Part shown: positions 1,965 through 62,181 of the stretch, piece by piece
Layout of the letters: each line of letters opens with the position of its first letter
Position numbering within the stretch: position 1 is the first letter of the stretch
Source of the DNA: Semisulcospira habei
Taxonomy: Eukaryota > Mollusca > Gastropoda > Semisulcospiridae
NCBI GenBank assembly: GCA_036245525.1
Contig: BTPG01000007.1
Coordinates: 128,966,375 to 129,030,374, forward strand
DNA length: 64,000 bases
Reading direction: 5' to 3'
Position numbers and translations under genes: made by a program
The notes under the pieces: generated by a model
Databases searched by the model: none
Told to the model about the DNA's origin: nothing
Seen by the model: only the letters and a program-made list of their open reading frames with translations

Positions 1965-2160
1965 TTAATCCATTTAGCTCCGACGCACTACAGCAGATGG
2001 ATCGACTATAATTCTAGGGTAGTGCCAGATCAGCTTGGCGCCATCAGGCGCCAAGCTGATCTGGCACTACCCTTGAATTGTCATGGTCGATCCGTCTCCT
2101 GCAACTGGTAACAGGCGTTAGCCGACACCTTCAAAATGTGGGAAATGCGGCTTACAGACG
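1965..2160. mobile_element. piggyBac-like MITE with hairpin A
   Basis: The element begins at TTAA (1965-1968) followed by TCCATTTAGCTCCGACGC, matching the end of the copy at 61977. Its centre is an inverted repeat (1995-2097) whose inner arms, GGGTAGTGCCAGATCAGC plus TTGGCGCC, pair perfectly around a four-base loop. The outer arms have several mismatches. The right terminus is decayed and I cannot fix its end precisely. No coding capacity is seen. Confidence 0.75.
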
Positions 2161-3060
2161 TAGATCTATCATCGTGAGCCTCCGCAACCGTGAAAGCTCA
2201 TGACGATCTATCTATGTCTCTTGCATTTGGGTCCTGTTCAGTGTGTATCGACAATCAAAGGGTTCACTAAACACAATTCGGTTTTAGAGGGATATCGATT
2301 TCAGCTTGAATTTCTCGCCGACGCTCAATGATGTTTTAGAACACGAGCATGGCCTATCAGTGCCATCAGTAAACCGAGCACGTTCTACAGTATACAGCTG
2401 AAACATCTGCGCAATGCAGACAGCTGAAACAGATGAGCTCCATAAATCACTTTGATGCTACCAGCAATGACAAGGGAAGGGTCGCTACATACATAGACTG
2501 GTTATTGCTAAAAAGCCAAACTTGTAATGTAGTTTGAACAACTTTTCAAGAGAAAAAAAAAAACTAGCTAATAGACTGTAGATAAGGTAGTTCTCGACTT
2601 TGAGCGCCTGCAATTTAAAAACCTACATAAAGCGCTGTAAACGATCCGGAGCATGAATATGATGAAACAATGATGATTCCTAACACCTTTGAGGGCGCAC
2701 GACGCATCTTTATTATTGTTACTACCACACAGATGCGCTTTCGAGCTGAGAAGTGAATAACTCACTACCACTTGCAATTACGTGGTAATGGTGGGTTGTT
2801 GTTTTTACTACGATATCCAGTGCGATGCATTATGGTTGTCAGTAACCAACGTTATCTAAGCATCAGCCACAGAAGTGAACAATTTGAACAGACAGCTCGG
2901 CATGTGAGTACCATCTGTACGCGGATGAATACAAAGAAGCATCCATCTATTTAATTATTTATTCATGCACCGACTGACTCTAAACAACCACCGCTGATTG
3001 GGGCTCAAGACATCCAAACTGATAGACCTCTGCACCGCCGGTAATAACTGATCGTTGTTT
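2161..3060. other. Intron-like stretch without recognised features
   Basis: A mixed-composition, AT-leaning sequence without a convincing reading frame or splice-bounded exon. I see no hairpin of the dispersed families here. It probably belongs to intron 1 of the minus-strand AUTS2-like gene. Confidence 0.4.
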
Positions 3061-3095
3061 GAAAGGCTGTTCCTGTATCTCCTATCCTACCATCT

Positions 3096-3161
3096 GCAAG
3101 AGGCATAGATCATCATGAGCCCCTGCAGTCGCAGGGGCTCATGAATAGCTATGTATCTTGC
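3096..3161. repeat. Hairpin B copy
   Basis: Inverted repeat with arms starting GCAAGAGGCATAGAT and ending at CCCCTGC/GCAGGGG around an AGTC loop. The inner arm is symmetric for CCCCTGC where most other copies have CCCCCGC, so both arms carry the variant. The outer right arm has point changes. The flanking element ends are not clear. Confidence 0.85.
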
Positions 3162-3782
3162 AAATTTATACTTCTGCTAATCCACGTCTCTTGGTAATCG
3201 TCTACCTGTTACTTTCTATCTCTTCTCCTTAGTTGCGGGGAGTCGTCAGGGTGTATCGTGAATGATTGCAGTTTGAGCGAGTGTGTCTGCCTGGTGGGCA
3301 GCTAGCCATACTGTTTATAATCGATGACTGCAGGGGAACACAAGCATCTGAATTTTGATGCTGTATTTGTAGATGGTGCGCCTTCGCCTTTGCCATCGAT
3401 AAAAATCTGAGGCAACTGATCACACTGAAATAATCCGATCAACAGAAAGGAGCAAGATGATCTTTCGCTTAATAATGCATAAAACATAACATGTCATAAA
3501 ATTCAAATGGTACTTAAAAATCAGTAAATAATATCATGTTTCGGTGTCAATGGTTATGACATTGCAATGCTCTTACTGTGAAGTTTTGCTGGTAAAATAT
3601 CGACATGTTAAAAAATAATCTTCTGAAACTTTTGAACGCCAGTCCGAAGACGACCCACTGAAGGTGAGCTCAAAAGTCTCAGTTGAATCTTAAGGTCTGC
3701 CTGTTTAACACATTCAACCCCAGAACCCAATACCCAATTTGTAAGCACCCCTCTGAAGGACTGTATTATAATTTCTGAGACA

Positions 3783-3878
3783 GATCGAGCATGATAGTTC
3801 AAGGGTGGTGCCAGAATAGCTTGGCGCCGATGGGCGCCAAGCTATTCTGGCACCACCCTTGAACTATCATGCTCGATC
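3783..3878. repeat. Hairpin A copy, perfect 46-bp arms
   Basis: Two 46-base arms pair without mismatch around a GATG loop. The arms start GATCGAGC where most copies have GATCGACC; the complementary base is changed too (GCTCGATC), a symmetric variant shared with the copy at 58387. The flanks resemble the ends of the 214-bp subfamily (GGGGCTGAATGAGT on the right) but have lost clear TTAA borders. Confidence 0.92.
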
Positions 3879-4316
3879 CATGTCTTGCTGTGGTGTGTCG
3901 GGGCTGAATGAGTACAGAGAAGAAAAAAAAATGTGTGAACTGTGATTCTAAAACCGTTACACATTACTGAACCGGTGTCGGAATCGCAGTAACAACGGAA
4001 GTGAGTTGCCCGTTCGCCTCATAAGTGAAAAGCCGTGTGCCTGTGCAAGAAGAGAGACAGGGAAATAAAGAGGGAGCGAGGGCAGAAGAAAGGAGCCGTG
4101 GCTGGCGAGAACCATCCATAAATCTTCCCGTCCATAACACCCTACAGCCCCCTCCATCAAACTAGGCCCCCACGCTTCCCTTCCCACGACCAGTTTACAC
4201 TGCTCCCCGTGAGTTTTACTAATTTCAGAAGAAAAAAAAATGAACAGTGCGCTACCCACCACAGCGCACATGTGTACAAATCACGGACGGGAGAACCGCT
4301 GGACCGTCTTACTCTT

Positions 4317-4386
4317 AGCACAAAGGGTGGTGCCTGATTAGCTTGGCGCCCCAGGCGCCAAGCCAATCAGGCACAACCTTTGTGCT
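4317..4386. repeat. Hairpin A variant
   Basis: Inverted repeat AGCACAAAGGGTGGTGCC...GGCGCC with a right arm differing at two or three positions. The outer arm (AGCACAAAG/CTTTGTGCT) differs from the usual TTCAAGGG/CCCTTGAA, again on both sides. Downstream, about 4400-4900, lie related decayed fragments such as the GACATGATTGGAAAATC and GACAAGATTGGAAAATC pair near 4450 and 4690. Confidence 0.8.
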
Positions 4387-5092: not shown

Positions 5093-5099
5093 CATTTCA

Positions 5100-5923: not shown

Positions 5924-5979
5924 AGACCAACCATAATAGTTCAAGGGTGGTGCCACCCTTGAACTATCATGGTCTATCT
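5924..5979. repeat. Hairpin A copy with collapsed centre
   Basis: The outer arms (AGTTCAAGGGTGG and CCACCCTTGAACT) are joined directly by TG. The whole inner third, CCAGAATAGCTTGGCGCC and its mirror, is missing. What remains is a short palindrome with flanking CATAAT/ATCATGG sequence, as expected from a symmetric deletion at the tip of a hairpin. Confidence 0.85.
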
Positions 5980-6730: not shown

Positions 6731-7028
6731 AACCCTCTGGTTGTTAGTAGCCGATTTTGTCACGATGATTCCTGCAGGAAGCATCATGACAAAAAAAATC
6801 AGCTACCAACACCAGTGTGTGAAATAAGCTTGACTAAAATAGTTCCAAGGCTAGTGCCAGAATAGTTTGGCGCCTCTAGGTGCCAAGCTATTCTGGCACC
6901 ACCCTTGAACTAAAGCCATTTATCTATACCCTTATCTGAAAGTACTGTAATGTAGATTGCATATAAAAGTATGGCAGTGTACAAATTTGAAGCTTTTACT
7001 GTTTTAGCCTCAGTATGATATGGGTTAA
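6731..7028. mobile_element. Composite MITE: family D palindrome joined to hairpin A element
   Basis: The left part (6731-6812) is a family D palindrome (TTAGTAGCCGATTTTGTC... mirrored to ...ATCAGCTACCAA) with an innermost CCTGCAGG. It runs directly into the ACCAGTGTGTGAAATAAG segment and hairpin A (6841-6911) of the subfamily seen complete at 61224-61440. The right end is GATATGGGTTAA (TTAA 7025-7028). It looks like one element inserted into, or recombined with, another at their shared TTAACCC-type end. Hairpin A here has several mismatches. Confidence 0.75.
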
Positions 7029-7950: not shown

Positions 7951-8075
7951 GTGCATGCAGCCACCAGTACCGTGGCTGCATGCACAACCCGGTAAGCAAA
8001 AGGTCCTCGGGCCGACGTCGGCAGCAGTGGGCGGGCCCACTGCTGCCGACGTCAGCCCGAGGACCTTTAGCTTAC
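7951..8075. repeat. Two adjacent palindromes, second of GC-rich family C
   Basis: The first palindrome (7951-7985) pairs GTGCATGCAGCCAC with its complement around CAGTACC. The second (7992-8075) has 40-base arms running from GTAAGC through CCTCGGGCCGACGTCGGC to CACTGCTGCCGAC, nearly perfect. Family C also occurs at 54170-54247 and 62821-62933 with ends of the CCCAGTGCGC type. The role is unknown; a foldback transposon is likely. Confidence 0.85.
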
Positions 8076-10685: not shown

Positions 10686-10894
10686 TTAACCCCTTCACTG
10701 CCGAAAAAAGTGAACTGACACCGCCCAACTGCAAGAGATATTGCGGCGGCTCATGAGGATCTATGCCTCCTGATAAAACCATTTTGTATCCGGCAGTGTC
10801 TCTTTTGATTGGCGGCTGACTTTGAATTTCAATTCTGACAATGATTTAAAGTAAAAACACAATCTGCATCCGCTGGCCGTCAGGGAAGGGTTAA
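10686..10894. mobile_element. piggyBac-like MITE, hairpin B type, decayed centre
   Basis: Ends are TTAACCCCTTCACTGCC on the left and an imperfect complement, GGCCGTCAGGGAAGGGTTAA, on the right, giving TTAA at both borders and a length of 209 bp. The central hairpin is reduced to CTGCAAGAGA...GGCTCATGAGGATCTATGCC. No reading frame is present. This copy shows the ends most clearly. Confidence 0.85.
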
Positions 10895-13312: not shown

Positions 13313-13421
13313 AACGTATTTGTTTTCCGAAAACAAATACGTTGATTTCTTTTACGGTTGATTTATCATACTTTTACGAAAATAGTGGAGGAATGGCATT
13401 CCTCCACTATTTTCGTAAAAG
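13313..13421. repeat. Two perfect short palindromes in tandem
   Basis: Positions 13313-13343 pair 15 bases (AACGTATTTGTTTTC) around one C. Positions 13371-13421 pair 25 bases (CTTTTACGAAAATAGTGG plus AGGAATG) around one G, without mismatch. TTGATTTCTTTTACG at 13342-13356 is also complementary to sequence just right of the second palindrome, so a larger fold is possible. Confidence 0.9.
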
Positions 13422-16617: not shown

Positions 16618-16681
16618 CAAGAGGCATAGATCCTCATGCGCCCCCGCAACTGCGGGGGCGCATGAGGATCTATGTCTCTTG
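16618..16681. repeat. Hairpin B copy with mirrored GCGCC variant
   Basis: Arms CAAGAGGCATAGATCCTCAT then GCGCCCCCGCA pair almost perfectly. Where most copies have GAGCC/GGCTC this copy has GCGCC/GGCGC, both arms changed together. A GGTGAAAGGGTTTG segment shortly downstream resembles the right element end. Confidence 0.88.
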
Positions 16682-16684
16682 CAG

Positions 16685-17866: not shown

Positions 17867-18080
17867 TTAACTCATTCTACCCCAGACACACCACAGCAAG
17901 ATCTGGATCGACCACGATAGTTCAAGGGTGATGCCAGAATAGCTTGGCGCCTATGGGCGCCAAGCTATTCTGGCATCACCCTTGAACTATCATGGTCGAT
18001 CTGTGTCTTGCACTAGAGTGCAGTCTTCAGAGGACGATGGCAAAGTTTGGTGATTTCGGTGTTGGGGTAGAATGAGTTAA
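17867..18080. mobile_element. piggyBac-like MITE, 214 bp, hairpin A
   Basis: Borders are TTAA at 17867-17870 and 18077-18080. The left end TTAACTCATTCTACCCCA is mirrored by TTGGGGTAGAATGAGTTAA on the right. The central hairpin A (17906-18001) has 46-base arms with one mismatch around a four-base loop and uses the GGTGATGCC/GGCATCACC variant. The same 214-bp size occurs at 27238, 35157 and 58349, so these are full-length members of one subfamily. There is no coding capacity; mobilisation would need a transposase in trans. Confidence 0.93.
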
Positions 18081-19407: not shown

Positions 19408-19712
19408 CCTGATTTTCAACCCCTTAGTTAGTTAGTTAGTTCATGTGTACTGTTTTAAGGCCATCTCACGGCGGCAACCCCATAACTGTCGGGGCAAGGC
19501 GAACGATACTCATCTGCAAGAGACATAAACCCTCATGAGCCCCCGCTGTCGCGGGGGCTCATGAGGATTTATGTCTCTTGTTAGTCCTGTGTTCGTCTTG
19601 TTCCCCCCGCTTTGTATAGGATTTCACTTTGTCCTTTTAAGCGGATGAGGTTCGTTTTAAAACTGATTTTAGGAGCACAACATATGGCCACTTACAGTGA
19701 AGGGGTAATTTT
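19408..19712. mobile_element. piggyBac-like MITE (hairpin B) carrying a SINE-tail insertion
   Basis: The element end AACCCCTTA is interrupted after CAACCCC by a (TTAG)n tail plus AAGGCCATCTCACGGCGG (about 19418-19484), then resumes at CAACCCCATAACTGTCGG. The seven-base duplication CAACCCC marks an insertion. Hairpin B (19517-19580) has 30-base arms GAGACATAAA.../...TTTATGTCTC, a variant mirrored on both sides, with at most one mismatch. The right end is GTGAAGGGGTAA. The inserted fragment matches the SINE 3' ends at 33442 and 60090. Confidence 0.78.
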
Positions 19713-20350: not shown

Positions 20351-20368
20351 AAGAAATGAATGACTAAT

Positions 20369-20463
20369 TAACTCACTGGCTGTCGTCAAGGCTTTTTGGT
20401 GGGGTGATTCCTGCATGATGAGTCACCTCACCAAAAAGCATTAACGACAGCCAATGGGTTAAA
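20369..20463. mobile_element. Minimal TTAA-bounded foldback element, family D
   Basis: The element runs from TTAACTCACTGGCTGTCG to CGACAGCCAATGGGTTAA, 95 bp, and is almost wholly palindromic around CCTGCATGATG. It shows the family reduced to two ends and a stem. Its neighbour at 20190-20350 shares the CGATGATTCCTG core. Confidence 0.85.
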
Positions 20464-20970: not shown

Positions 20971-21606
20971 TTATTTGCCGCGCATCAGTGTTAGAATATG
21001 CGGCATGTCAGTCTTCAACGCTGTTTTAGCCGCGTATCCGAATGCAGTGCCGAGAAAATCTGGGTCGCGTTGCATGTAATTTTCAATAGCCAGTACTTGC
21101 GTGTCATAGTTCCAAAGGCTTTGTTTTGAGTAAATCCAGACCAAAAAGGTGACTGCCAAGCGTGTAATATGCAAAGAAGTACCCAACGGAGAAAGAAACA
21201 CGCTTAGAAAAGACGGGTACAACACAATTTATTAATATTTCGGGTAAATACCCTTTGTCAAAATAGACAAACAAACAAACATAGAGATTAGCCGCTACTT
21301 ATCTTCAATGGCAGAAGGAATGTGGCAACTGAAGGAGGTGACCTCCTTCAGTTGCCACATTCCTTCTGCCATTGAAGATAAGTAGCGGCTAATCTCTATG
21401 TTTGTTTGTTTGTCTATTTTGACAAAGGGTATTTACCCGAAATATTAATAAATTGTGTTGTACCCGTCTTTTCTAAGCGTGTTTCTTTCTCCGTTGGGTA
21501 CTTCTTTGTTTTGAGTAGTCTTTAGGTCCAAGCAGAAATGTCGCCGCATTGGCAGTTACTGGCCTGGAAATGTTTTCTGCAACTGATGGCATAAAGCCAC
21601 TTAAAT
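20971..21606 (-). pseudogene. Unidentified reading frame split by a palindromic insertion
   Basis: On the minus strand, 21606-21504 reads GFMPSVAENISRPV...FLLGPKDYSK and 21132-20971 continues QSLWNYDTQVLAIENY...LMRGK and a stop. The two parts are collinear in the same frame if the 385 bp between the direct repeats is treated as an insertion (385 leaves remainder 1, and the two frames differ by exactly that). Composition is protein-like (Trp, Tyr, Asp, Met), and the right boundary coincides with a half hairpin B element. I do not recognise the family. It could be a last exon of a host gene, a transposon gene or another insertion-derived sequence. Confidence 0.45.
21133..21517. mobile_element. 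Perfect 337-bp palindrome inside a 385-bp insertion
   Basis: Arms 21172-21339 and 21341-21508 are exact reverse complements (168 bp each) around a single G at 21340. The block is flanked by 14-base direct repeats CTTTGTTTTGAGTA (21119-21132 and 21504-21517), consistent with a target duplication. Each arm contains GACAAAGGG, a short loop, CCCGAAAT and then ATTAATAAATTG. This resembles the stem II and GAAA part of the degenerate hammerhead motifs known from Penelope-like retroelement ends, but two core bases differ. The element class is therefore inferred only. Confidence 0.8.
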
Positions 21607-22798: not shown

Positions 22799-22948
22799 TT
22801 TTTTTCCAGGCACCTAGTTTGAGGGACGCGCGTGCGCGTCCCTCAAACTAGGTGCCTGGAAAAAAATGAACACGATTCAGCTGCAAGAGACATAGATCCT
22901 CATGAGCCCTCGCAGTTGCGGTGGCTCATGAACATCTATGCCTTTTGC
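22796..22948. repeat. Family G palindrome followed by hairpin B
   Basis: 22796-22866 is a near-perfect inverted repeat (CCAGGCACCTAGTTTGAGGG and GACGCGC around GT). After a short spacer comes hairpin B (22882-22948) with several right-arm changes. A related pair occurs at 28703-28820, where the family G part is reduced to one arm. The shared spacer (GAACACGATTCAGCTGCAA) shows the two palindromes belong to one composite element. Confidence 0.85.
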
Positions 22949-23419
22949 TGACACCTCTTTAAATCCATTTATCTGGGACGGCTGGGTCTTCTAAGGCGTT
23001 GAATTATAGAAAACGGCAGAAACACAATCTGCGTAAAATGTGTAAGGGAGTTAGTCAATATATATTTTCCCTATCTGACTTTGTATCCTTCAATTAACAC
23101 CCTGGTAGGCAATCTACATTTACCCCCTTGTGCATGCAGCCACCGGTCATGTTTAATCTGCATACACTAGAGAGTTAATGTGAGAAAATAAGTGTTCGCT
23201 GTGTAGTTTTAGTTCTATATGTATGATCACTTGGCCTCCCTTGAATTACGTTTTCAAACACCATAACTTTCTGAGTAAACATTTACTTCACAAATCGATT
23301 TGTTAAAGGGAATAGTTCATAACATCACCCAAAATATTAAAGTAACATACTACAACTAATTGTTCTAGAAAAGCTGCATTACAGATTAGGAGACACATGA
23401 ATCATTTTAGTTCAAGGGT

Positions 23420-25001
23420 GATACCAGAATACTTACTTACTTATGCCTGTCACCCCTACCCGGGTATAGGCCGTCGACGAGAGACCTCCAGCAACTCCTG
23501 TCCTGTGCTTCTCCTTCGATTCTACTCCAGGTGGTTCCCAGTCTCTTGATGTCTGCTTGGAGGTCTCGACGCCAGGAGTTTCTCGGCCTACCTCTTTTCC
23601 TCTTTCCCTGGGGGTTCCATGACAATGCCTGCCTAGTGATACTGGAAGCTGGCTTTCTCAGACTGTGACCAATACATCCCCATCTTCTTCGCCCAATTTC
23701 ATTCTCTGCTGTTATCTGCTCTGTTCTCTCCCAGAGTCTGACGTTGCTGATCTTCTCTGGCCAGTGGATTTTCAAAATTCTTCTAAGGCAACTGTTCATG
23801 AAGGTCTGTACTCTGTTGACTGTGGTTTTTGTCAATCTCCATGTCTCTGCTCCATATAGGAGAACTGCTTTTACATTGGAGTTGAAAATCCGGACTTTGG
23901 TGTGTTGTGACAGCTCTCTGGAACTCCACACTTTTTTCAACTGGAGAAAGGCTGCTCTGGCTTTACCGATTCGTGCTCTGACATCTGCATCAGTGCCGCC
24001 TTTTTTGTCTATGATGCTCCCGAGATAGGTGAAGGACTCCACCTCCTCCAACGGGGTGCCAGCAAGCAAGACTGGTTCTTCCCTGGTTGCGTTCAGCCTC
24101 ATTGTCTTTGTTTTCTGTTTGTGAATGGTGAGGCCCACTTGGGACGAGATGTCAGCAAGCCTCGTGGTCTTGTCCTGCATTTGTTGATGAGTGTGGGACA
24201 GTAATGCCAAGTCGTCTGCAAAATCGAGGTCGTCAAGCTGTGTCCACAGTGTCCACTGTATTCCACTTCGTCTGTGCTCTGTGGTCATCTTCATGACCCA
24301 GTGTATGGCCAGTAGGAAGAGGAACGGAGACAGCAGACACCCCTGCCTGACACCAGTTCTGACCTGGAGCTCTCTGGTGAACTGCCCTTCGTGGATCACG
24401 CGACATGTCATGCCATCATAGCTGCTCTTGATCAGGCGGACGAGCTTTGTGGGTACACCGTAGTGTCGTAGGAGTTTTCACAGAGTCTCTCGGTCCACGC
24501 TGTCAAATGCTTTCTCATAATCCACAAAGTTGACGTACAGCGGGGAGCTCCACTCCAGAGACTGTTCCACGATGATGCGGAGAGTGGCGATCTGGTCTGT
24601 ACATGATCGGTTCTTCCTGAATCCTGCTTGCTGGTCTCTCAGCTGGGGGTCAACGGAGCTCTTCATTCTCTCTAGGATGATCCTGTTGAAGACCTTTCCT
24701 GGTACGGACAGCAAGGTGATTCCTCTGTAGTTGGAACACTTGCTGAGGTCGCCTTTCTTGGGAAGCTTGATTAGGTACCCCTCCTTCCAGTCAGCTGGCA
24801 TCACCTCCTCTTCCCAGATCTTTCCAAACAGTGGGTACAGCATCTCCACTGTTGTCTCTAGGTCTGCTTTCAGAGACTCCGCTGGGATGCCATCTGGCCC
24901 TGCTGCTTTGCCATTCTTCAAAAATGCCACTGCTTTTCTGATCTCTTCCCGGCTGGGTCTGTCACAGCTGATGGGTAGGTCGGTCTCTGCCGGCTGGATG
25001 T

Positions 25002-26766: not shown

Positions 26767-26848
26767 AGCGCCAAGCTATTTTAGCACCACCCTTGAACTG
26801 CCATATTCAAATTTATTTCAAACAATGTATCGGGATGAAAAGGGGTTA
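26767..26848. mobile_element. Right part of the hairpin A MITE interrupted by the LINE
   Basis: The sequence resumes with AGCGCCAAGCTATTTTAGCA and CCACCCTTGAACTG and ends in GGATGAAAAGGGGTTAA (TTAA 26845-26848). The same right end occurs at 34763-34766. The left part lies at about 23370-23430. Confidence 0.8.
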
Positions 26849-27237: not shown

Positions 27238-27451
27238 TTAACTCATTCTACCCCAGACACACCACAGCAAGATATGGATCGACCATGATAGTTCAAGGGT
27301 GATGCCAGAATAGCTTGGCGCCTATGGGCGCCAAGCTATTCTGGCATCACCCTTGAACTATCATGGTCGATCTGTGTCCTGCACTGGAAAGCAGTCTTCT
27401 GAGGACAACGGCAACACTTGGGGATTTCGGTGTTGGGGTAGAATCAGTTAA
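27238..27451. mobile_element. piggyBac-like MITE, 214 bp, perfect hairpin A
   Basis: TTAA borders at 27238-27241 and 27448-27451 with ends TTAACTCATTCTACCCCA and GTTGGGGTAGAATCAGTTAA. The central arms (27277-27322 and 27327-27372) are 46 bp each and match without error around TATG. The sequence is close to the 17867 copy, including the GGTGATGCC variant. Confidence 0.95.
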
Positions 27452-28702: not shown

Positions 28703-28820
28703 AAAGTCCCTCACCCTTGGTGTCTGGAAAAAAAAATAAACACGATTCGGCTGCAAAAGACATAGATCCTCATAAGCCTCCGCAGTTGCGGGGGCTCGGG
28801 AGCATCTATGCCTTTTGCTG
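28703..28820. repeat. Family G remnant plus hairpin B
   Basis: AGTCCCTCACCCTTGGTGTC and the TGGAAAAAA segment correspond to one arm of the palindrome at 22796. It is followed by the same spacer and a hairpin B (28754-28820) with scattered changes. It is a partially collapsed relative of 22796-22948. Confidence 0.75.
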
Positions 28821-29567: not shown

Positions 29568-29891
29568 GGTGGAAATACTATAGAAGAAGCCCATCGTTTT
29601 GTCTGGACCCTACAATTTATTTTCACTATTGATGTATACTGTATATCTGCTTTTGTATCCCTCAATTAACACCTTTTACCGGCAGTCTACACTTATCTAA
29701 TTGTACCTAATTGCACAAAGGGGTTATTGAAAAACAACGAGTAGTGCATCTGTGGTTTCTACTTTTGGATTTATATCCCGTGAGTTAGGTTTTTAAAAGC
29801 CATACATTTATGAGTCAACATATACTTAACAATCAATTTACTACAGGAAAAAGTTCATATGATCGTAGACCGCACACAGGGTTTAATCATA

Positions 29892-34549: not shown

Positions 34550-34619
34550 AAAAACATACTGTCTTTAAGCCTGAGGCCGACCTTTAAAAAGTTCCTTAAT
34601 GTTTTATAAAAGCTAGATT

Positions 34620-34766
34620 ACAGATTAGATAAATTAATCATTTTAGTTCAAGGGTGATCATGCCACAATAGCTTGGAGCCTCGCGCCAAGCTATTCTGGC
34701 ACCACCCTTGAACTGTCATAGTCAATTGTTTTCAAGCAACAATGCATCGGGATGAAAAGGGGTTAA
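34620..34766. mobile_element. Hairpin A MITE, decayed
   Basis: The left arm has an inserted CAT and other changes (GGGTGATCATGCCACAATAGC); the right arm is nearly consensus. The right end GGGATGAAAAGGGGTTAA (TTAA 34763-34766) matches 26845. Sequence to 35000 repeats 26850-27080, showing that a unit larger than the MITE was copied. Confidence 0.8.
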
Positions 34767-35156: not shown

Positions 35157-35370
35157 TTAACTCATTCTACCCCAACACCGAAATCCTTAAATTTGGCCAT
35201 TGTCCTCTGAAGAGTGCATCGCAGTGCATGACACAGATCGACCATGATAGTTCAAGGGTGATGCCAGAATAGCTTGGCGCCCATAGGCGACAAGCTATTC
35301 TGGCATCACCCTTGAACTATCATGGTCGATCCTTATCTTGCTGTGGTGTGTCTGGGGTAGAATGAGTTAA
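35157..35370. mobile_element. piggyBac-like MITE, 214 bp, hairpin A, inverted orientation
   Basis: TTAA at 35157-35160 and 35367-35370. It belongs to the 17867/27238 subfamily but its asymmetric flank lies on the left, so it is inserted in the opposite orientation. Arms 35236-35281 and 35286-35331 pair with one mismatch (GGCGACAAG). Confidence 0.93.
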
Positions 35371-36922: not shown

Positions 36923-37144
36923 TTTGTACGGAACCTCGCGGGTTAATGGTCACAGGTACAGCTACTGCCTAAGGAATGCGACCTGAAAAATATCAGTTCA
37001 GGCGCGCTGCAACTGTACCACTTTGATTTTGACATGTCATTGGACAATGTAATGGTACAGGATAAGTTCGTATTTTTTGCCAGGACTGACCTTATAATTA
37101 AATTTCACTATCTGCTCTTGTATCAGTCAAACTCAATCACGCTT

Positions 37145-37257
37145 TTAACCCTTATCATTCGGAATACACCAGTGTGTGAAATACGGCGTTTGACTAAAAT
37201 AGTTCAAGGGTAGTGCCAGACTAGCTTGGCGCCTAGAGGCGCCAAGATATTCTGGCA

Positions 37258-37292
<35 letters not shown>

Positions 37293-37953
37293 CGGCATCC
37301 TGTCTCGGAAGGCAATGGAGTATGCGCTTGCTGGGTCAGTCACTGGAGTGACCTCTCCAGTGCGCAAGCCTGGGCGAAGTGTATAGAGATCCTGGGATGC
37401 CCAGTCGTCAAGATCCACCTCTCTGCCTCGCTGATGTATCCAAAGGAATGCAAAGCAGTACGTTTGGCATCAGTTTGGCTGCAGGAGCTGCCAGAACAGT
37501 GCGTGAATACAGGCAGCTGTCTGCCTTTGGGGCTCCACTCCTTATTTGAAGGGTTTACTCCCCCACATTTGGCCGTTGGATCCAACCTGATCTCCTCCGT
37601 CCTCTAGCCGTTGGCTGTCAGAAACAACTCATCCGCCTAGTGGTGCAATGTGAACACCACCCCCTCACGTGGTTTAGCCCACCAGCTGAGGTGGTTTGCC
37701 AGGGTGTGGCGCTTGGAGCCAGTACGTGAGATTAAGAAGATGGATGAGGACCAGTGATGCCCATCCGTCCTATGTAGGACGCAGCTGCCGAACAGCAAAG
37801 GTACTACCTCTATCCAGAGCCCCCTACACATTCTGGCACCACCCTTGAACTAAAGCCATTGGTCTATAGCCTTATGTGTAAGTACTATAATGTAGCTTGC
37901 ATATGGCAGTGTACAAATTGGAAGCTTTTTAGCCTCAGTATGATATGGGTTAA
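37145..37953. mobile_element. Hairpin A MITE interrupted by a poly(A) retroposon
   Basis: The left end TTAACCCTTATCATTCGG and right end GTATGATATGGGTTAA match the complete element at 61224-61440. The left palindrome arm and the loop (CTAGAG) are intact; the right arm is split after ATTCTGGCACC. Confidence 0.9.
37249..37840 (-). mobile_element. Poly(A)-tailed retroposon with 11-bp target duplication
   Basis: ATTCTGGCACC occurs at 37249-37259 and 37830-37840. The insert starts with about 30 T on the plus strand, so it is a minus-strand element of about 540 bp plus poly(A). Its body has no long frame. It contains GTGACTGACCCAGCAAGCGC close to the tail and GGTTTAGCCCACCAGC-type sequence further in. 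It could be a LINE 3' fragment, a SINE or a processed RNA copy; I cannot identify the source. Confidence 0.88.
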
Positions 37954-38436
37954 GGCGCCCCGCATCCATAGCTGCGATGTATCGTATAGTTTAGCCGCCG
38001 GCAGCGCTTTCACAGCTATTGATCCGGGACCTCTGAGTTAACGGAAGTCTACACTTAACCCCCTTGTGCTTAATGCTGACACCGGTACTGTAAACAGTAC
38101 TACATGCAAAAGGGAGGTTAATTAGTGTGGAAACAGTAGTAAATGTTGTATGGCGGTTTTACTTTTGGACGAGTGCAGATTTACCTCCCTTTGGTTTGGT
38201 TTTTAAAAGCTATACAATTATGAGTTAACATATACTTACACTATCGATTTACTATAAGAAATTGTTCACAAAATCACCAGAAATATAAGAGTAACATTAT
38301 ACACCAGATTTTGTATGCTAAACTGGCTACTTTGAACCACATAGATCAATATGTGCATTCAGTCATATGATGTATTTGGCCACTTGTAAATTATTCGCAA
38401 CACAGTTGTAATCGGTTGGATTTTTAACCTGACAGT

Positions 38437-38785: not shown

Positions 38786-39130
38786 TGTATGAAATAAATC
38801 TTATAATGATAGTTCAATGGTGATGCAAGAATAGCTTGGCGCCCAGAGGCGCTAAGCTATTCTTGCACTACCCTTGAAGTAAAATGGTTTTAACTATTCC
38901 CTAATTTATGATGTAGCCTTCATCGGACAATACACAAATTTGAAGAAAAAAAAAATAGCCTCAAGTTATGAAATAAATCTTATAATGATAGTTCAAGGGT
39001 AATGCAAGAATTGCTTGGCGCCCAGAGGCAGTACCCTTGAACTAAAATGGTCTAACTATTCCCTAATTTATGATGTAGCATTCATCGGACTATACACAAA
39101 TTTGGAGAAAAAAAAATAGCCTCAAGTTTT
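38786..39130. repeat. Tandem duplication of a hairpin A element
   Basis: GAAATAAATCTTATAATGAT begins both copies (38791 and 38970). In the first (38811-38880) the hairpin arms are nearly complete. In the second (38990-39044) the right arm is missing from the centre to GTACCC, an asymmetric deletion. Flanks (TAACTATTCCCTAATTTATG) are otherwise near identical, so the loss postdates the duplication. Confidence 0.82.
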
Positions 39131-39978: not shown

Positions 39979-40201
39979 GACCCAAATCATACTCAGGCTG
40001 AAAGCTTCAAATTTGTACTCTGCCATACGCAAGCTACATGACAGTACTCACAGATAAGGATGTAGACCAATGGCTTTAGTTCAAGGGTGGTGCCAGAATA
40101 GCTTGGCGCCTAGAGGCGCCAAGCTATTCTCGCACTACCCTTGAACTATTTTAGTCAGACTTATTTCACACACTGGTTGTATTCCGAATGATAAGGGTTA
40201 A
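39979..40201. mobile_element. Hairpin A MITE, inverted relative to 61224
   Basis: The right end CGAATGATAAGGGTTAA (TTAA 40198-40201) corresponds to the left end at 61224. The left end is a decayed TGACCCAAATCATACTCAGG. The arms (40078-40149) pair with three mismatches around TAGA. Confidence 0.85.
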
Positions 40202-44166: not shown

Positions 44167-44350
44167 TTAACCCATTTAGCCCCAAGGCCGCATTTCCCCA
44201 TTCCTGGAGGAGTTACCTAACGACGGCGTACCACTTGCAAGAGATGGATCGACCATGATAATTCAAGGGTAGGGCCAGATGAGCTTGGCGCATGAAGGCA
44301 TTACCCTTGAATTATCATAGTCGATTCATCCCCTGCTGTATGCCGTTGGA
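44167..44350. mobile_element. Hairpin A MITE, inner right arm deleted
   Basis: TTAACCCATTTAGCCCCAAG (44167) is the end shared with 55340. Outer arms GATCGACCATGATAATTCAA and TTGAATTATCATAGTCGATT pair well, but the inner part is asymmetric (AGCTTGGCGCATGAAGGCA). Confidence 0.82.
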
Positions 44351-44542
44351 GCTAACCAGCACTCACATTCCGTCAAAGTACATGAGTGTTTGTTAAATTA
44401 CGGACAGGAATGTTGTTTGCCAGTACATGAATACACGCGCGCGCGACTTCTTGAAGTAGGGTCGTCAAATGCGGACTCTCCTGTCAGTCGCGTGGCCCAA
44501 GTAAATGCGTGAGATGTTCAACCGATGTGTTTTGTTTGTTTT

Positions 44543-47293: not shown

Positions 47294-47532
47294 TTAACTC
47301 CTTCGCTGCCAGAGATCACGAATTGCACGTCAACAACGACTGCACGCTGACCGATTAGCGTGGGGAACACAAATGTAAATGGGACAAAATTATGCATAAA
47401 GCACATAGGACTAACAACTGAGAGACATATCATATCATGAACCCCCGCGACTAAGTCCGGGGGCTCATGAGGATCTATGCCTCTTGCAGGTAGGTGGCCG
47501 CGGTTCAGTTTTCTCGGTAGTGAAGGGGTTAA
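47294..47532. mobile_element. piggyBac-like MITE, hairpin B half
   Basis: TTAACTCCTTCGCTGCC at the left and GTAGTGAAGGGGTTAA at the right. The left palindrome arm is reduced to CATATCATGAACCCCCGC. Copy 3 at 54660-54914 has the same borders. Confidence 0.85.
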
Positions 47533-48210: not shown

Positions 48211-48859
48211 AACATCAAAGGGAATAACAACACACTCATGTGTATTAGCTGAAATAAAGATTTAGAAAAGGAGCTGCTGTGGCGGAAACCAGTGCTGGTT
48301 AAACTCCCTCATCATTTGTTGGCCGCGTAATTTTTTCTGGCCAGAGGTCATTGGAATAATCGATGGCAACGCCAGAAAGACGGAACTAATGACCGCCCAT
48401 CTGCAAGTACAGCAGTTCTGTTATGAGGAACCACCCTGATGAGAGATCACCTGTCATCAAAGACCATTGTGGCCACCTAAATTGGGTCTTTAAAGACAGG
48501 TGCCACTGTTTGCCCTTCATTCTCTTGAGAGCACCTGTCTTTAAGACCACCGTTTTCTCGTTGAAAAGTGTTCGCTCAAAACAGGATCTACTGTGGCATT
48601 GATCTTCATGACAGGAGTCCGTGTTGGCGGATTTGTCAGTCACATTCATTTCTCATGGAAACTCAGTCTATCTGCATCTGATATAGATGCCCATGAGACT
48701 ATGTCGTGGATAACCTGTCATATTTTCCGAGATTTCTACGGCAGTCTACATTCTTAGCTTGGTGCCTGGCATGGATGGAACATTGTAGCTTAAACGTATT
48801 GACTGATTAGCCTGGCGTAGTGAACCATGACAGCTCAAAGAATGTTGCTGAATTATTTA

Positions 48860-48925
48860 ACGCTCATTGTGGCTTAAAATAGCATATAGGTAGTGCCTAC
48901 CTACCCAGACACTACCCTGACGCTC
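48860..48925. repeat. Hairpin A with collapsed centre (paralogue of 52995)
   Basis: AGGTAGTGCC is followed by TACCTACCCAGACACTACCC. The paralogous copy keeps the full TAATTAGCTTGGCGCC stem, loop and return arm. Flanks (GGCTTAAAA, CTGACGCTC) align, so this copy lost the palindrome centre. Confidence 0.88.
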
Positions 48926-48986
48926 CTGGTCTATTCATATCCAACTGCTGACGTTTGACTGAAGTGAAAGAAGTGTGACCCTTTGC

Positions 48987-51214: not shown

Positions 51215-51834
51215 TGCGGGGGCTCATGAGGATCTATGCCTCTTGCAGGTAGGTGGCCGCGGTTCAGTTTTCTCGGCAGTGAAGGGGTTAACAAAGATTA
51301 ACAGCGGAAGGCGGCTGTCATTGCTTGCTTTAAACATCAAAGCTACCCTCGTTGAGTTGTAGAAACTGTATAAAAGTAACTAATCAACAAGTCAAGGCAA
51401 CCAGCCCATTTAGCTATCAAGTAAACCAACCAAATAATCAACGAATAAGTGGCGTAAGAAAAACAAAGAACGGAAACATGACCAAATTATAAAAAAGCCT
51501 AATAGTTTTACTTGTGTTGTGGGCAAAACTTATGGAAAACTGATATTTGCAAATACACTCAGACTGAAGAAAATGCGGATTTGCCTCCCTTGAATAATTT
51601 TGTTCCGAAATGTAATAGTAAAAGAATGTTATCAATCATGTAACGTCAAACTAGCTCTGTTGTGAAAATCGCTAAAAGTTCAAACATACAATTTTACATT
51701 TAATAGTACCGTACATTTGGGGTACAGGTTAAGCTTTAAAACACAAACGTTAATAATAAAACATTTATTTGGAAACACTTTATGATGTTGCAATGGGCAG
51801 TTACGGTGGGGGCGAATTTCAACTTGTGTTAATG

Positions 51835-52815: not shown

Positions 52816-52994
52816 GTCTGCCATAGTTTCCGAGATTTCTACGGCAGTCTACATTCTTAGCTTGGTGCCTGGCATGGATGGAACATCAGTTGTATCTTAA
52901 ACGTATTGACTGATTAGCCTGGCGTAGTGAACCATGACAGCTCAAAAAATGTTGCTGAATTATTTAATGCTCATTGTGGCTTAAAACAGAATAT

Positions 52995-53050
52995 GGGTAG
53001 TGCCTAATTAGCTTGGCGCCTCTAGGCGCCAAGCTAATCAGACACTACCC
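52995..53050. repeat. Hairpin A, intact paralogue
   Basis: Arms GGGTAGTGCCTAATTAGC plus TTGGCGCC pair with two mismatches around TCTA. The counterpart in copy 1 has lost this centre. Confidence 0.9.
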
Positions 53051-53859
53051 TGACGCTCATGGTCTATTCATATTCAACTGCTGACGCTTGAAGCGAAAGA
53101 AGTGTGACCCTTCGCACACGTGTGTATGCGCGTGCGTGCGTGTGTGTGTGATTGTTTGCGCACGCGCGCGCTTGTATTTTGGCAAATTCTGTTTTCGAAA
53201 TCAGTGTGTGCTAAAACTAAGACACTCGGGACAAGCAGACGGTGCAAGGGAAGCTAATCTGTCGAGGTAAGAACCACGCACCAGAACACAACTACATCCC
53301 TTGAGCCTAGACAGCCGGACACGTTTTACTCGTAACCCCTCGCGCGCGCACAGCTCCATACTACAACTGTGAATGTAGCAGGGGCAGATCTGGGAGTGGG
53401 GGGGGGGGGGGGGGGGGGAGGGGGGCCCAGGGGACCGGACCCCCCTCCCCCGACCCAAAATTCTATAAAATGCCATAATAGTCCCTTCTCGGGGTGTTTG
53501 AACACACGCACACGCAGGCTTACCCCTCTCCCCCGAGGTTTCGGACATAATCGCTGAGGATATTTTGACGCACAAACTTGATTAGCTGGTTTGAGTGGAC
53601 GCACACGACTGACTGATGTTTTGGGCCCTAACGCTCTCAGATAGGCTAGACTCACTATAGATCTGACGGCGCACACTGTAAATTGAGCGGACATGTTGCT
53701 TGGACTAATCATTTTGGATTTTAGACCGAATAAAGATGTCCATTTTGAATACGTAATGTATTTATCTCCGCTGCAGAGCGTCTAGAAAAAAAGAAACACT
53801 TAGTTCGTGATTCAGGAATGCTTTTAACGTTACTCTCCACCACTACCACTACCCCCTCG

Positions 53860-54140: not shown

Positions 54141-54159
54141 ATTGTGTTCCCTACACAAT

Positions 54160-54257
54160 GCGCGAAAGTCCATCGGGCCGACATCGGCCGTCGTTGGCCC
54201 GCGCACGGTCGTGCGCGGGCCAACGACGGCCGATGTCGACCCGATGGCTTTTCCCGC
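54160..54257. repeat. GC-rich family C palindrome
   Basis: 54170-54207 and 54210-54247 pair perfectly except for one or two positions (CCATCGGGCCGACATCGGCC, GTCGTTGGCCCGCGCACG). Flanks TGCGCGAAAGT and GCTTTTCCCGCACTGGG are loosely complementary. Confidence 0.9.
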
Positions 54258-54424
54258 ACTGGGTACATGTCTGCACGTGCAGTTTTGACACCCACTCAAA
54301 TCTCACATCACCGTTATTACAATCATAATAAATACATGTCTGCACATTTCTTCTCTCCGTCAACCAAACACTTTCTAAAAACACACCAGGAGAGAACTGG
54401 CACGTATAGTGATGGTAGGGACGG

Positions 54425-55110
54425 GAGGGGTGGGTCACGACGGATTATCAGCTTGTTTCAGCTTGTCCCATGAGGCATAGACAGCAAGCACTCCAGTGTG
54501 CCTGTCTTGATCTATGTCCTTTGGAGATGTTTGGAGTGCTTTCTATGCGTATGACACAAGCTGGTTATCCGCCATAACTTGACTTCGCTCTCGTTGGTTG
54601 TTGGAAGTTCTTCGTTTCAAAAGAAAACCTGACTATTTGTAAGCCGGTTACTGTCACATTTAACTCTTTCGCTGCCAGAGATCACGAATTGCACGCCAAA
54701 AACGACTGCACGCTGACCAATTCGCTGACCGATTTGACCGATTCGCATGGGGAACACAAATGTAAATGGGATAAAATTATGCATAAAGCACATAGGACTA
54801 ACAACTGAGAGACATATCATGAGCCTCCGCGACTAAATGCGGGGGCTGATGAGGATCTATGCCTCTTGCTGGTAGGCGGCTGCGGTTCAGTTTTCTCGGC
54901 AGTGAAGGGGTTAACAAAGATTAACAGCGGAAGGCGGCTGTCATTGCTTGCTTTAAACATCAAAGCTACCCTCGTTGAGTTGTAGAAACTGTATAAAAGT
55001 AATTAATCAACAAGTCACGGCAACCAGCCCATTTAGCTATCAAGTAAACCAACCAAATAATCAACCAATAAGTGGCGAAAGAAAAACAAACAAGACCAAA
55101 TTATAAAAAA
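54425..55110. repeat. Segmental duplication, partial copy 3
   Basis: Aligns to 47040-47720, including CACGACGGATTATCAGCTTG and TTAACAGCGGAAGGCGGCTG. Stops near AAAGAAAAACAAA, so it lacks the U5 gene. Confidence 0.85.
54660..54914. mobile_element. piggyBac-like MITE, hairpin B half (copy 3 of 47294)
   Basis: TTAACTCTTTCGCTGCC to GCAGTGAAGGGGTTAA. The palindrome is asymmetric in the same way as at 47294, so the damage predates duplication. Confidence 0.85.
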
Positions 55111-55292: not shown

Positions 55293-55870
55293 AAGGCTGT
55301 TTCCATATAGCTACGTGGCAGCGGCAGTAGGCCAAACGGTTAACCCTTTTAGCCCCAAGGTCCCATTTCTCATTAGTTGGAGGTTTGCCTAACGACTATG
55401 TGCCAGTTGCAGGAGATGGCTTGACCATGATAATTCAAGGGTTGTGCCAGATTAGCTTGGCGCCTGAAGGCGCCAAGCTAATTTGGCACTACCCTTGAAT
55501 TATCATGGTCAAGCTATATTCTGCTGTAGGGATCCGGGGCTAGAAGGGTTAATCCAAAATTTAAGTTAAAAAGTAGCTGAAGGAGCAGCGGAAAATCGCT
55601 TCGTGTGTTTCCATATAGCGGCGCCACAGGTTGTTTCGACTGAATTGTTGCGATATGTTGTCCCGTACTGATAAACACGCTCCTTTCACAGAAAAATCGC
55701 GGCTGAACGGCCGTTGAATTACTGCACAGGGAGATGCAATTTTGTCGCGCCGCTCTCGCCTGTCGCCCCGTAATCGAAACACTCCATCTTTATTTCTAAA
55801 GTTCTCGATTCATGCCGATGTTGCCACCGCTTTCGCATCACTGTCACATTGCTATATGGAAACACCCCTT
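55293..55870. mobile_element. Inverted-terminal-repeat element, copy 2, with nested MITE
   Basis: The left end AAGGCTGTTTCCATATAGC and right end GCTATATGGAAACACCCCTT match the element at 43646. It sits in the dispersed repeat whose uninterrupted form is at 12991 (CGAATTAACGGTGAC), which provides an empty site. A hairpin A MITE is nested inside. Confidence 0.78.
55340..55552. mobile_element. piggyBac-like MITE, 213 bp, hairpin A
   Basis: TTAA at 55340-55343 and 55549-55552, ends TTAACCCTTTTAGCCCCAAG and GGGGCTAGAAGGGTTAA. Arms (55419-55514) pair with very few mismatches. GCTTGACC/GGTCAAGC and AGATTAGC/GCTAATTT are the local variants. Confidence 0.93.
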
Positions 55871-57727: not shown

Positions 57728-57822
57728 CTGCAGACAGGTTGATCCCATACGTGAAATATGCAATCGACTTTGCTGTTCACTCATACTGCCCGCGACGCAC
57801 CGCAGCAAGACTCGTGATCCGG

Positions 57823-57920
57823 CTCGACCATGAGCGGAGTTGAAGGGTGGTGACAGAATAGCTTGGCGCCTATAGGCGCCAAGCTATTCTGCCACCACCC
57901 TTCAACTCTCATGGTCGATC
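57823..57920. repeat. Hairpin A in intron, with mirrored GTTGAAGGG variant
   Basis: The arms carry GTTGAAGGG/CCCTTCAAC where other copies have GTTCAAGGG/CCCTTGAAC, so both arms changed together. The left arm has an extra CGG and there is one inner mismatch. It lies in the last intron of the thioredoxin-fold gene. Confidence 0.9.
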
Positions 57921-58062
57921 TGTCTCCTGAACTGTAATGCAGTCCTCAGAGGATAACTCCAAATTGCTATATAAAGTCGGACATAAGGACACTTTTTCGG
58001 AGGCCCAGACATGTAGGCCTAAATTACTTCGCTTGTGACACAATTGAGATTTAAAAAAATAC

Positions 58063-58348: not shown

Positions 58349-58562
58349 TTACCTCATTCAACACCGACACACCACAGCAAGACATGGATCGAGCATGAAA
58401 GTTCAAGGGTGGTGCCAGGATAGCTTGGCGCCCTTAGGCGCTAAGCTATTCTGGCGCCACTCTTGAACTGTCATGCTCGATCTATCTCTAGAATTGTAAT
58501 ACAGTCCTTCAGAAGGCAACTTCAACATTCGGGGATATCGGTCCTGTGGCAGAATGTGTTAA
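58349..58562. mobile_element. piggyBac-like MITE, 214 bp, hairpin A
   Basis: Left end TTACCTCATTCAACACCG (TTAC for TTAA), right end GTGGCAGAATGTGTTAA. Arms 58387-58432 and 58437-58482 start GATCGAGC/GCTCGATC and have about five mismatches. Size equals the other full-length members. Confidence 0.88.
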
Positions 58563-58820: not shown

Positions 58821-58843
58821 GCAACACAACTAGATATACTTAC

Positions 58844-59100: not shown

Positions 59101-59104
59101 ACAG

Positions 59105-60060: not shown

Positions 60061-60089
60061 GCGGTAGTGGTTTTTTTTTTATGGAATTG

Positions 60090-60227
60090 AAAAATTAGGG
60101 GATGACTGGGACTGACTAAGGCTAACAGACTGGACAGTACGGAGACGGCACTGTAGTCCGTGACTTCCACCCGCCGTGAGATGGCCTTCGTAGCCTGCTC
60201 GGCGTTAAACCCAAATGACTAACTAAC
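60090..60227 (+). mobile_element. SINE-like 3' end with (AACT) tail
   Basis: CGCCGTGAGATGGCCTTCG, CTCGGCGTTAAACCCAAA and GACTAACTAACTA match the insertion at 33442-33575 in opposite orientation. The 5' limit is not clear. Confidence 0.75.
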
Positions 60228-60229
60228 TA

Positions 60230-61220
60230 TTCCCATTCATTTTACTATCACTTTGCTCATTTCATTTCGATACCACAGCACCAAAACGCAACCCACAAAA
60301 AGCAAACGCTATCTTTGAAACCGATGTCCGAAGTGCAATATGCTGCATGCTGTAAAAGAGAAAGAGTGCCACACCACTTAGTTTTAACTGAACAAAGACC
60401 AGGAAAAATAACGTATATGACGTTGATAAGATGTACTTCAAAGTTCAAATTCAAAATAATCTCTGTCTCGCTTCAGGAGGAAAGTAAACCTGCGTCAACC
60501 GTGTGCGTCTGATTGACTTCGTTCGAAGGCATCTCGCTTACCGCCATTTTGAAACTAGCGACGCGAGTATGCTTGCGGCATTAAAAATATTACTTTTTAA
60601 ATTATTTTCTCGTAAATATGTACACATGTTTACTCGCTCATGAGTTTAATTTGACCACTGGAATAAACTTGTAAGTTGTATGATTGAAATTTTCAATGTT
60701 CTGCACAACAACAACAAAGATGTCTAGCGCCTTATCCGGGCCGTGTACAAGGACTGGTTCCCCCACAGCGAACAAACAGCGCTCGATAAACACTTATAAA
60801 AATGTCTCCATCCTAAGGACAAATAATATTGTTGTTATACATAAACCATAATTATGACATTAGTACTTTCGTTTCGTACCTGCAAACCATTGTTACTCTT
60901 TTGACGAACTACTTACCTCTGCAGAAATTGCGTAATCTGCTAGACTACTAAGCAAGGCAAGAGTCGAGAGAAATGGAGTCAAATTGTCAACGGGCAGTTA
61001 TATCAAAGCGAATCGATTAGCAAGGCACATGCGCCAACGTTAGGATTAAGGTCGTTGGATTCCTTAGGGTAATGAAAGTAGGCCTAGCCAAATCTTTTTG
61101 TTAGTATTGAGTGAAGTTATCAGCCACAACGTACAATACATGTGTGTGGTGCAGCTCTGAGTGGAGGAAAACATACAGTAGACATACTAACATTGCCAGT
61201 AATAACATTACTCATGTCAT
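60230..61220 (-). other. Intron of thioredoxin-fold gene, no exon recognised
   Basis: No hairpin family or RNA gene is visible. Sequence is AT-rich with ordinary complexity. Confidence 0.4.
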
Positions 61221-61223
61221 ATT

Positions 61224-61440
61224 TTAACCCTTAACATTCGGAATACACCAGTGTGTGAAATAAGTTTGACTAAAATAGTTTAAGGGTAGTGCCAGTATAG
61301 CTTGAGGCGCCAAGCCATTCTGGCACCACCCTTGAACTAAAGCTATTGGTCTATATCCTTATCAGTCACAAGTACTATAATGTAGCTTGCATGGCAGTGT
61401 ACAAATTTGAAGCTTTTAGCCTCAGCATGATATGGGTTAA
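61224..61440. mobile_element. piggyBac-like MITE, 217 bp, hairpin A
   Basis: TTAACCCTTAACATTCGG to GCATGATATGGGTTAA, TTAA at both borders. The palindrome has lost part of the left inner arm (AGTATAGCTTGAGGCGCC). This is the most complete representative of the subfamily seen at 37145, 39979 and 6816. Confidence 0.9.
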
Positions 61441-61758
61441 AGAGACCTGCTCCAGGGAATAAGGAGTTATTAGTTCGGAATATCGTTGTTGTTGTTGTTT
61501 TTCTTCTCTCCTATAACTGTTCTTTAGTGTGTCTTACAATAATGCTGGACAAACGAGCTGTCATAACTTATGAAGTCTGTATGTCGTAAAAAAGGAAAGA
61601 CTGTTCTGCCCCTTCTCTCAGTAGAAAACCTCAGCCTACTCACACAGAGTGTGGAAAACAGGTTAGAACATTTTTAGTTGAGGCAAGACATCATCGATGA
61701 TTCGACCCGCTTTATCGGCATAATTCAGCAGTCAAAGCCCCCCGCGGAGCAGATCGCT

Positions 61759-61980
61759 TTAACCCCTTCACTGTCGGGGCAAGGCGAACGCCAACCAGTT
61801 GCAAGAGACATAAATCCTCATGAGCCCCAGAAGTCGCGGGGGCTCGTGAGGATTTATGTCTCTTCAAGGTCGGTCTCTTGTTAGTCCTGTGTCCTGTTTC
61901 TTGGCTCGTCGTCTTTATAGGCAAATGTAGAGCGGTGTGATGTGATTACAGACGCGAAATCCGCAATCGGAAGGGGTTAA
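61759..61980. mobile_element. piggyBac-like MITE, hairpin B, abutting the next MITE
   Basis: TTAACCCCTTCACTGTCGG at the left, CGGAAGGGGTTAA at the right. Hairpin B (61801-61864) uses the GACATAAA/TTTATGTC variant as at 19517. Its right TTAA (61977-61980) is also the left TTAA of the next element. Confidence 0.88.
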
Positions 61981-62181
61981 CCCATTCAGCCCGACGCACG
62001 CATTTCCCAAATTTTGGAGGCGTCATCTAACGATTATGCACCTATTCCAGGAGATGGATCGACCATGATAATTCAAGGGTAATGCCAGATTAGCTTGGCG
62101 CCGACAGGCGCCAAGCTAATCTGGCACCACCCTTGGAATTACCCATCTCCTGCTGTAGTGCGTCAGGGCTGAATGTGTTAA
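61977..62181. mobile_element. piggyBac-like MITE, hairpin A, sharing a TTAA
   Basis: TTAACCCATTCAGCCCGACG to CGTCAGGGCTGAATGTGTTAA. Hairpin A left arm GATCGACCATGATAATTCAA is intact, but the outer right arm is shortened (GGAATTACCCATCTCC). It lies in the intron about 100 bp from an exon. Confidence 0.9.

Follow-up and report, generated by a model that had tools for sequence, protein, structure and literature searches.

The window analysed here, 64,000 nucleotides of the gastropod Semisulcospira habei (assembly GCA_036245525.1, contig BTPG01000007.1, positions 128,966,375 to 129,030,374 of the forward strand), holds two families of palindromic element, A and B, each in many copies. On balance, we consider it probable that these are non-autonomous miniature inverted-repeat transposable elements (MITEs) of the piggyBac type, that the matched variants of their two palindrome arms track subfamilies and were fixed in source elements, and that in duplicated copies the arms diverge at the rate of the flanks. 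A dense set of palindromic, TTAA-bounded elements without genes is real: 36 long near-palindromes of all families lie in the window, against none in each of four first-order Markov windows, which bears out the long palindromic centres described in an earlier, sequence-only reading of this DNA.

That reading had also described TTAA-bounded elements of 213–217 bp, and the six that it named measure 214, 214, 214, 213, 214 and 217 bp with both TTAA counted; the copy at 58349 has TTAC at its left end. An element of subfamily X of family A begins with an 18-bp terminal repeat including TTAA and a 21-bp left flank. The palindrome comes next, 96 bp long around a loop of 4 nt, and a right spacer of 60 bp separates it from the right terminal repeat. 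Subfamily Y, the copies with GAGC arms and the copy at 57775 can be aligned with X, while A2 and A3 make up a separate alignment; in the A1 copies the flanks on either side are homologous. Element ends are of type TTAACTCATTCTACCCC or TTAACCCTTATCATTC, and ends of type TTAACCCCTTCACTGCC adjoin several B palindromes. Two A copies, with palindromes at 3783-3878 and 27277-27372, have perfect arms (46/46).

An arm-profile search (E up to 10, weak matches included) returned 66 A-arm and 62 B-arm matches. The paired A set was based on the 54 of the 66 A-arm hits that passed the nhmmer inclusion threshold, and the pairing of neighbouring opposite hits above this threshold gave 22 A and 15 B copies with both arms, 10 unpaired A arms being left uncounted. 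The A copies at 36183/36229, 53980/54021 and 6107/6173 were lost from pairing because of a very degenerate second arm, and the B copies lost include 2156/2196, 7230/7262, 18439/18471, 47421/47458 and 54808/54839. Since the profiles were themselves built from palindromic copies and degenerate-arm copies were dropped, matched arms are favoured in this set, a bias that runs against the account given above.

Evidence for this account comes from insertions duplicated along with their surroundings, so that the differences between duplicates arose after landing. Comparison S1 concerns an old A-family insertion (34570..34760, minus strand), common to the paralogous unit that has 23402-23431 plus 26768-26809 and likely also to 29522-29562 (comparisons S1R and S1L); S2 a B palindrome at 22883..22948 (plus strand) and its duplicate at 28753-28818; S3 a B palindrome at 47421..47487 (plus strand) with duplicates at 54808-54869 and 51216-51246; S4 an A-type palindrome at 52904..53066 (plus strand) with a duplicate, its centre deleted, at 48778-48928; and S5 an A-family MITE at 38788..39128 (plus strand), the palindrome of which is locally duplicated in tandem. 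Over these six comparisons the arms diverged at 28/290 positions (9.7%) and the flanks at 173/1784 (9.7%). Individually, arms and flanks differ at 8/62 and 56/437 in S2, where no change is mirrored, 3/53 and 28/498 in S3, 4/30 and 22/295 in S4, 5/62 and 13/100 in S5, 4/42 and 48/418 in S1R, and 4/41 and 6/36 in S1L, the last being weaker, since the evidence that its insertion is shared comes from the element's own flank and a single outer side. The four best-supported comparisons (S2, S3, S4 and S1R) give 19/187 in arms and 154/1648 in flanks, and all ten give 40/410 and 265/3318, the four extra ones (arms 0/30, 1/31, 7/30 and 4/29) being overlapping. In the four sets with both arms, 15 arm pairs changed, 14 on one side and one on both, and none of the 15 changes was mirrored (95% upper limit 18%). 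Additionally, 19 left–right mismatches remain unchanged in both paralogs; they are given no weight, because 14 of them lie in S3, where a left-arm deletion shifts the register. Neither constraint nor symmetrisation is apparent in these landed duplicates. A non-long-terminal-repeat (non-LTR) retrotransposon lies inserted in an A palindrome, within its left arm, between copies of a 12-bp duplication, GATACCAGAATA (23420-23431 and 26756-26767).

The sequence-only reading had proposed that resident copies are actively symmetrised, that is, that one arm is rewritten from the other after insertion by hairpin-templated conversion or repair. The perfect arms at 3783-3878 and 27277-27372, the mirrored changes in the lone copies 57775, 12191, 16618 and 56891, and the palindrome at 22799-22866 would agree with such a process. 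However, arms diverging as fast as flanks, the outcome that, on a genome-wide scale, was named beforehand as refuting symmetrisation, is what is seen at the duplicated loci in the window; moreover, inherited unmirrored sites were left uncorrected, and the within-copy excess of arm identity disappears inside subfamilies. We therefore consider symmetrisation of resident copies very improbable, and palindromic source elements followed by independent drift fit better. The palindrome at 22799-22866 is a perfect 33-bp one beside an (AC)n tract; its left arm matches its own right arm throughout, and the paralog at 28.7 kb of the window holds the right arm only, in diverged form. It is likely a late template-switch event, or an assembly artefact.

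The comparison of arms within and between copies, a check that the earlier reading itself had proposed, supported it only at first level. In family A, 637/692 core cells are identical between the two arms of the same copy (92.1%, 22 copies), against a mean of 84.8% when partners were dealt at random, and in family B within-copy agreement is 90.6% against 86.2% (15 copies); in both families none of 2000 permutations reached the observed value. Since the permutation test ignores relatedness, the comparison was rerun inside subfamilies, which take in 15 of the 22 A copies and were named after arms and flanks had been seen, X, Y and the GAGC pair being checked on flanks afterwards. The mismatch counts, first for the two arms of a copy and then for opposite arms taken from different copies, were 1/102 and 2/204 in X, 5/68 and 6/68 in the GAGC pair, 11/120 and 36/357 in Y, 14/136 and 42/408 in A2, and 9/61 and 10/61 in the tandem pair T. 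Pooling gives 40/487 for arms of the same copy and, for arms of different copies, 96/1098 when they are opposite and 86/1098 when they are same-side; without the GAGC pair, the first two become 35/419 and 90/1030. Flank distances alone back X (0.12–0.13) and Y (0.16–0.30), whereas the GAGC pair is non-reciprocal on flanks alone, the nearest flank relative of 58349 being 27238. The within-copy excess is thus present overall and gone inside subfamilies.

A further claim had been that each difference between arms of different copies is mirrored in the partner arm. This holds for the most part for GACC/GAGC (column 7) and for the AGAATAGC/AGATTAGC/AGATCAGC/TGATGATC variants (columns 31-37), but mismatches in the core occur in 19 of the 22 A copies (55/692 cells in all, a few of which, as at 62057, 38985 and 5930, adjoin indels), and in the 15 paired B copies 13 cells depart from the consensus in a mirrored way and 41 are unmirrored. 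For the GGTGGTGCC/GGTGATGCC/GGTAGTGCC motif the claim fails: nowhere in the core is mirroring weaker, with column 25 unmirrored in 8/22 copies and column 26 in 5/22. Unmirrored arm variants are inherited by some subfamilies, since all four A2 members read A at column 25 of the element-left arm against G in the right one, and column 26 of the old insertion has A in 3/3 plus-strand left arms and G in 2/2 right arms.

At the same time, source elements of different subfamilies differ by mirrored changes. The copies at 27238 and 3702, both perfect palindromes, differ at 36% in their flanks, whereas in the arms two columns alone, 7 and 26, tell them apart, each by a mirrored change. Mirrored transversions were found at columns 7, 13, 18, 31 and 34 of A and at column 23 of B. 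Transversions have no wobble intermediate. Single copies with mirrored changes are 57775, 12191, 16618 and 56891. Within the X trio (17867, 27238 and 35157), two arm changes between copies are unmirrored and none is mirrored.

The mechanism that we propose would place the matching of the arms in the source elements. The two arms may be inverted repeats that bind the transposase at the inner side of each element end, and would have come to lie face to face by the loss of everything between them. If both arms are read by one transposase, they would be filtered together on moving, so that sequence and symmetry would be screened only in source elements, at transposition. The mirrored changes, transversions included, would likely have arisen by one-step template switching between the arms during replication.

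Movement itself could also symmetrise: an excised or replicating intermediate might fold and have one arm copied onto the other, so that just-moved copies are mended, landed ones decay, and founders of new subfamilies start as perfect palindromes. Mirrored changes between subfamily founders and their absence from duplicated residents are as this would predict, and mirrored transversions need no wobble intermediate. Yet the A2 members look like separate insertions, as judged from mutual matches that end at the element, and all four share an uncorrected unmirrored site; likewise, the X trio copies differ by two unmirrored and no mirrored arm changes. We give this possibility a small chance. A similarly small one is given to repeated birth, in which each subfamily arises from one arm folded back anew, fixing the changes gathered by that arm. 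Perfect founders, several adjacent mirrored changes in 12191 (in a stretch partly shifted by an indel) and the presence in the window of fold-back palindromes unrelated to A or B speak for it, but the flanks are homologous on both sides across A1 copies, and the event would therefore have to replace the arm alone.

The last rival is selection on the folded form, also raised by the sequence-only reading; it would act on a small-RNA precursor or double-stranded transcript and so maintain pairing of the arms. Long stems and compensated changes are expected of a selected RNA hairpin. With the element strand used where flanks allow and the plus strand otherwise, however, wobble-compatible unmirrored transitions number 24 on one strand and 19 on the other, which is no clear strand preference, and 34 unmirrored changes are of the transversion type; no palindrome matched Rfam at the gathering threshold, and constraint after insertion is absent. 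No sign of such selection was thus obtained, and we judge it highly unlikely.

Filtering of source elements is also consistent with the distribution of conservation along the element. In the X trio the differing cells are 0/54 in the left terminal inverted repeat (TIR), 4/63 in the left flank, 4/288 in the palindrome, 35/180 in the right spacer and 2/51 in the right TIR; conservation everywhere but in the right spacer fits a filter acting on source elements. The statement that flanks drift much more than palindromes is therefore correct for the right spacer of X but not for its left flank and two TIRs, and among the three A2 copies the left part has relatively fewer differences (5/116) than the core of the palindrome (14/200). 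At greater depth, conservation is highest in the palindrome, with a divergence of 0.146 against 0.25–0.41 elsewhere in the A1 copies except 53980, and of 0.120 against about 0.30–0.32 in the A2/A3 alignment.

Several points weigh against the account of filtered source elements and later drift. The duplicate test includes only four loci with both arms; S5, a tandem duplication inside one element, may predate the insertion (leaving it out gives 0 mirrored among 11 changed pairs), and a deletion adjoins three of the four positions at which the arms differ in S4. At the level of consensus sequences, the five mirrored differences (four core, one outer) are similar in number to the unmirrored ones (three core, five outer). 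The copy at 3702 keeps 46/46 arms despite one decayed TTAA and flanks that differ by 28-50% from those of all ten other A1 copies, and repair of resident copies would also explain its perfect arms. The A2 elements moved with unmirrored arms; perfect symmetry is thus not strictly needed. Finally, the arms, at 34-46 bp, are longer than the 19-bp repeats of piggyBac, and neither a piggyBac transposase nor an autonomous partner came to light among the 16 open reading frames (ORFs) scanned of the 34 of at least 120 aa listed in the window.

Assignment to the piggyBac type rests on the element ends and the target site. TTAA is present at both ends in five of the six named elements, the sixth being 58349, and an end is decayed or missing in several other copies. 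In the five named copies with intact TTAA, CT or CC follows it, giving pyrimidine-start termini. The ends of piggyBac are of CCY type. Of three paralogous U5 units aligned (27, 29 and 35), two carry an element at the same position; the third, which lacks it, shows a lone TTAT (29640..29760) that may be a changed target site. In subfamily X, the arms lie at 39 and 79 bp from the tips with TTAA counted, an unequal spacing. These observations support the suggestion of TTAA-targeted, piggyBac-like MITEs, and families A and B look, from their sequences, like likely non-autonomous members of this type. No exact match to the A or B core was found in a viral contig collection; in public genome contigs the A core had one match (L001, a bacterial metagenome-assembled genome), without a mirrored partner in the surrounding 120 bases, which is taken as chance.

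The individual elements of subfamily X are 17867..18080 (plus strand, 214 bp from TTAA to TTAA, palindrome 17906-18001, arms 45/46, core 34/34), 27238..27451 (plus strand, 214 bp, with the perfect palindrome 27277-27372, arms 46/46) and 35157..35370 (minus strand, 214 bp, palindrome 35236-35331), the last in a paralogous U5 unit. The elements at 27238-27451 and 35157-35370 occupy the same TTAA of two paralogous U5 units in opposite orientation. They are about 93% alike, and their U5 units differ at 48/418 aligned flank sites; they represent either two independent insertions, with about a dozen TTAA sites per unit, or an in-place flip. The GAGC copies are 3702..3914 (minus strand), with the perfect palindrome 3783-3878 and one decayed TTAA end, and 58349..58562 (plus strand), the palindrome of which (58387-58482) carries unmirrored changes. 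The element at 57775..57980 (plus strand) has decayed ends and private mirrored transversions at columns 13 and 18 (n=2), and the old insertion at 34570..34760 is unmirrored at columns 13 and 26. Subfamily Y comprises 55340..55552 (minus strand, 213 bp, palindrome 55419-55514), 1965..2149 (plus strand, without the right end, palindrome 2000-2092), 61977..62181 (minus strand, palindrome 62057-62141) and 44167..44360 (minus strand, part of the centre deleted). To A2 belong 61224..61440 (plus strand, 217 bp, with the inherited unmirrored column 25), 39980..40201 (minus strand, palindrome 40076-40150), 6809..7028 (plus strand, without the left end, palindrome 6838-6912) and 37143..37969 (plus strand), the right arm of which is split by an insert with a run of 30 T at its start (37260). 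Further B palindromes are 16618..16682 (plus strand), with a private mirrored A>C change (GCGCC), and 19516..19580 (plus strand) of the GACATAAA subfamily, which has flank sequence in common with 61801-61864. A TTAA-to-TTAA element of 95 bp at 20368..20462 is near-palindromic from end to end.

Other palindromes were also noted. Those at 5930-5978, 48880-48928 and 10730-10769 have an apparently deleted centre, as expected of hairpin-prone DNA. A third family with a GGGCCGACGTCGGC-like core (7992-8075, 54152-54265 and 62838-62913) has no clear TTAA ends within the 60 bases viewed on each side. A perfect 25-bp palindrome at 13371-13421 is unlike the A or B arms, and a 168-nt inverted repeat at 21172-21508, 100% complementary with 1 nt between its arms, either formed very recently by fold-back or is an artefact of assembly. 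The surroundings include seven U5 small nuclear RNA genes on the plus strand over about 30 kb (22213-51954), with nothing else listed by Rfam at the gathering threshold; the U5 units are very unequal in length and loaded with transposons. ARAGORN found no transfer RNA genes in the window. Non-LTR reverse transcriptases are present, and among the matches listed (best 120 of 879) their named relatives include Littorina, Batillaria, Schistosoma and Branchiostoma.

PALTTAA elements are TTAA-bounded non-autonomous MITEs. PALTTAA2 of Caenorhabditis is listed with the PiggyBac repeats in the excerpt of PMC1431705, and the window elements resemble this type, by description rather than by compared sequences, in being palindromic, TTAA-bounded and piggyBac-grouped; a palindromic body between TTAA sites is found here as well. 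A difference is that the palindromes of families A and B lie inside the element, away from its centre, between non-palindromic flanks of unequal length; 20368-20462 is of the whole-length type. In piggyBac, one and the same palindromic internal repeat of 19 bp is present at both ends, but not equally far from the two tips (PMC7351741, PMC11707139). The TTAA target is shared with piggyBac and piggyBat, and the like repeat at both ends and the unequal spacing with piggyBac, whereas the repeats in the window measure 34-46 bp and abut, and the 16 ORFs scanned yielded no transposase. Kolobok, which occurs in molluscs and makes a TTAA target site duplication, is described in part of PMC9587614 with termini 5'-RR and YY-3'. 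This candidate was rejected: the TTAA target is alike, and the termini in the window read 5'-CT or 5'-CC after TTAA.

In Galileo, a Foldback-like element, the TIRs of one copy are 98-100% alike, subfamilies exist and non-allelic recombination has been proposed, as stated in the excerpt of PMC3573991; it differs from the window elements in its P-element superfamily, 7-bp target duplication and long TIRs. Template switching can create and fix hairpin stems, as proposed for RNA genes in PMC8794818, one event making or mending a perfect stem with mirrored changes of several bases; those hairpins are RNA genes, whereas here the mirrored changes stand at the subfamily level in a MITE. In the titles and abstract beginnings listed by literature searches, which took in few subscription journals, co-variation of the arms of a MITE was not reported. 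The elements fit the known palindromic TTAA MITE type, and how the source elements stay symmetric is the testable residue. Mirrored change at the source level, set against its absence from duplicated landed copies, separates in-place hairpin repair from a filter acting on movement, and dense families of such elements would allow a genome-wide test of the two. It also serves as a warning that 'perfect co-varying arms' seen in a few good copies can be the mark of a subfamily and not of a process.

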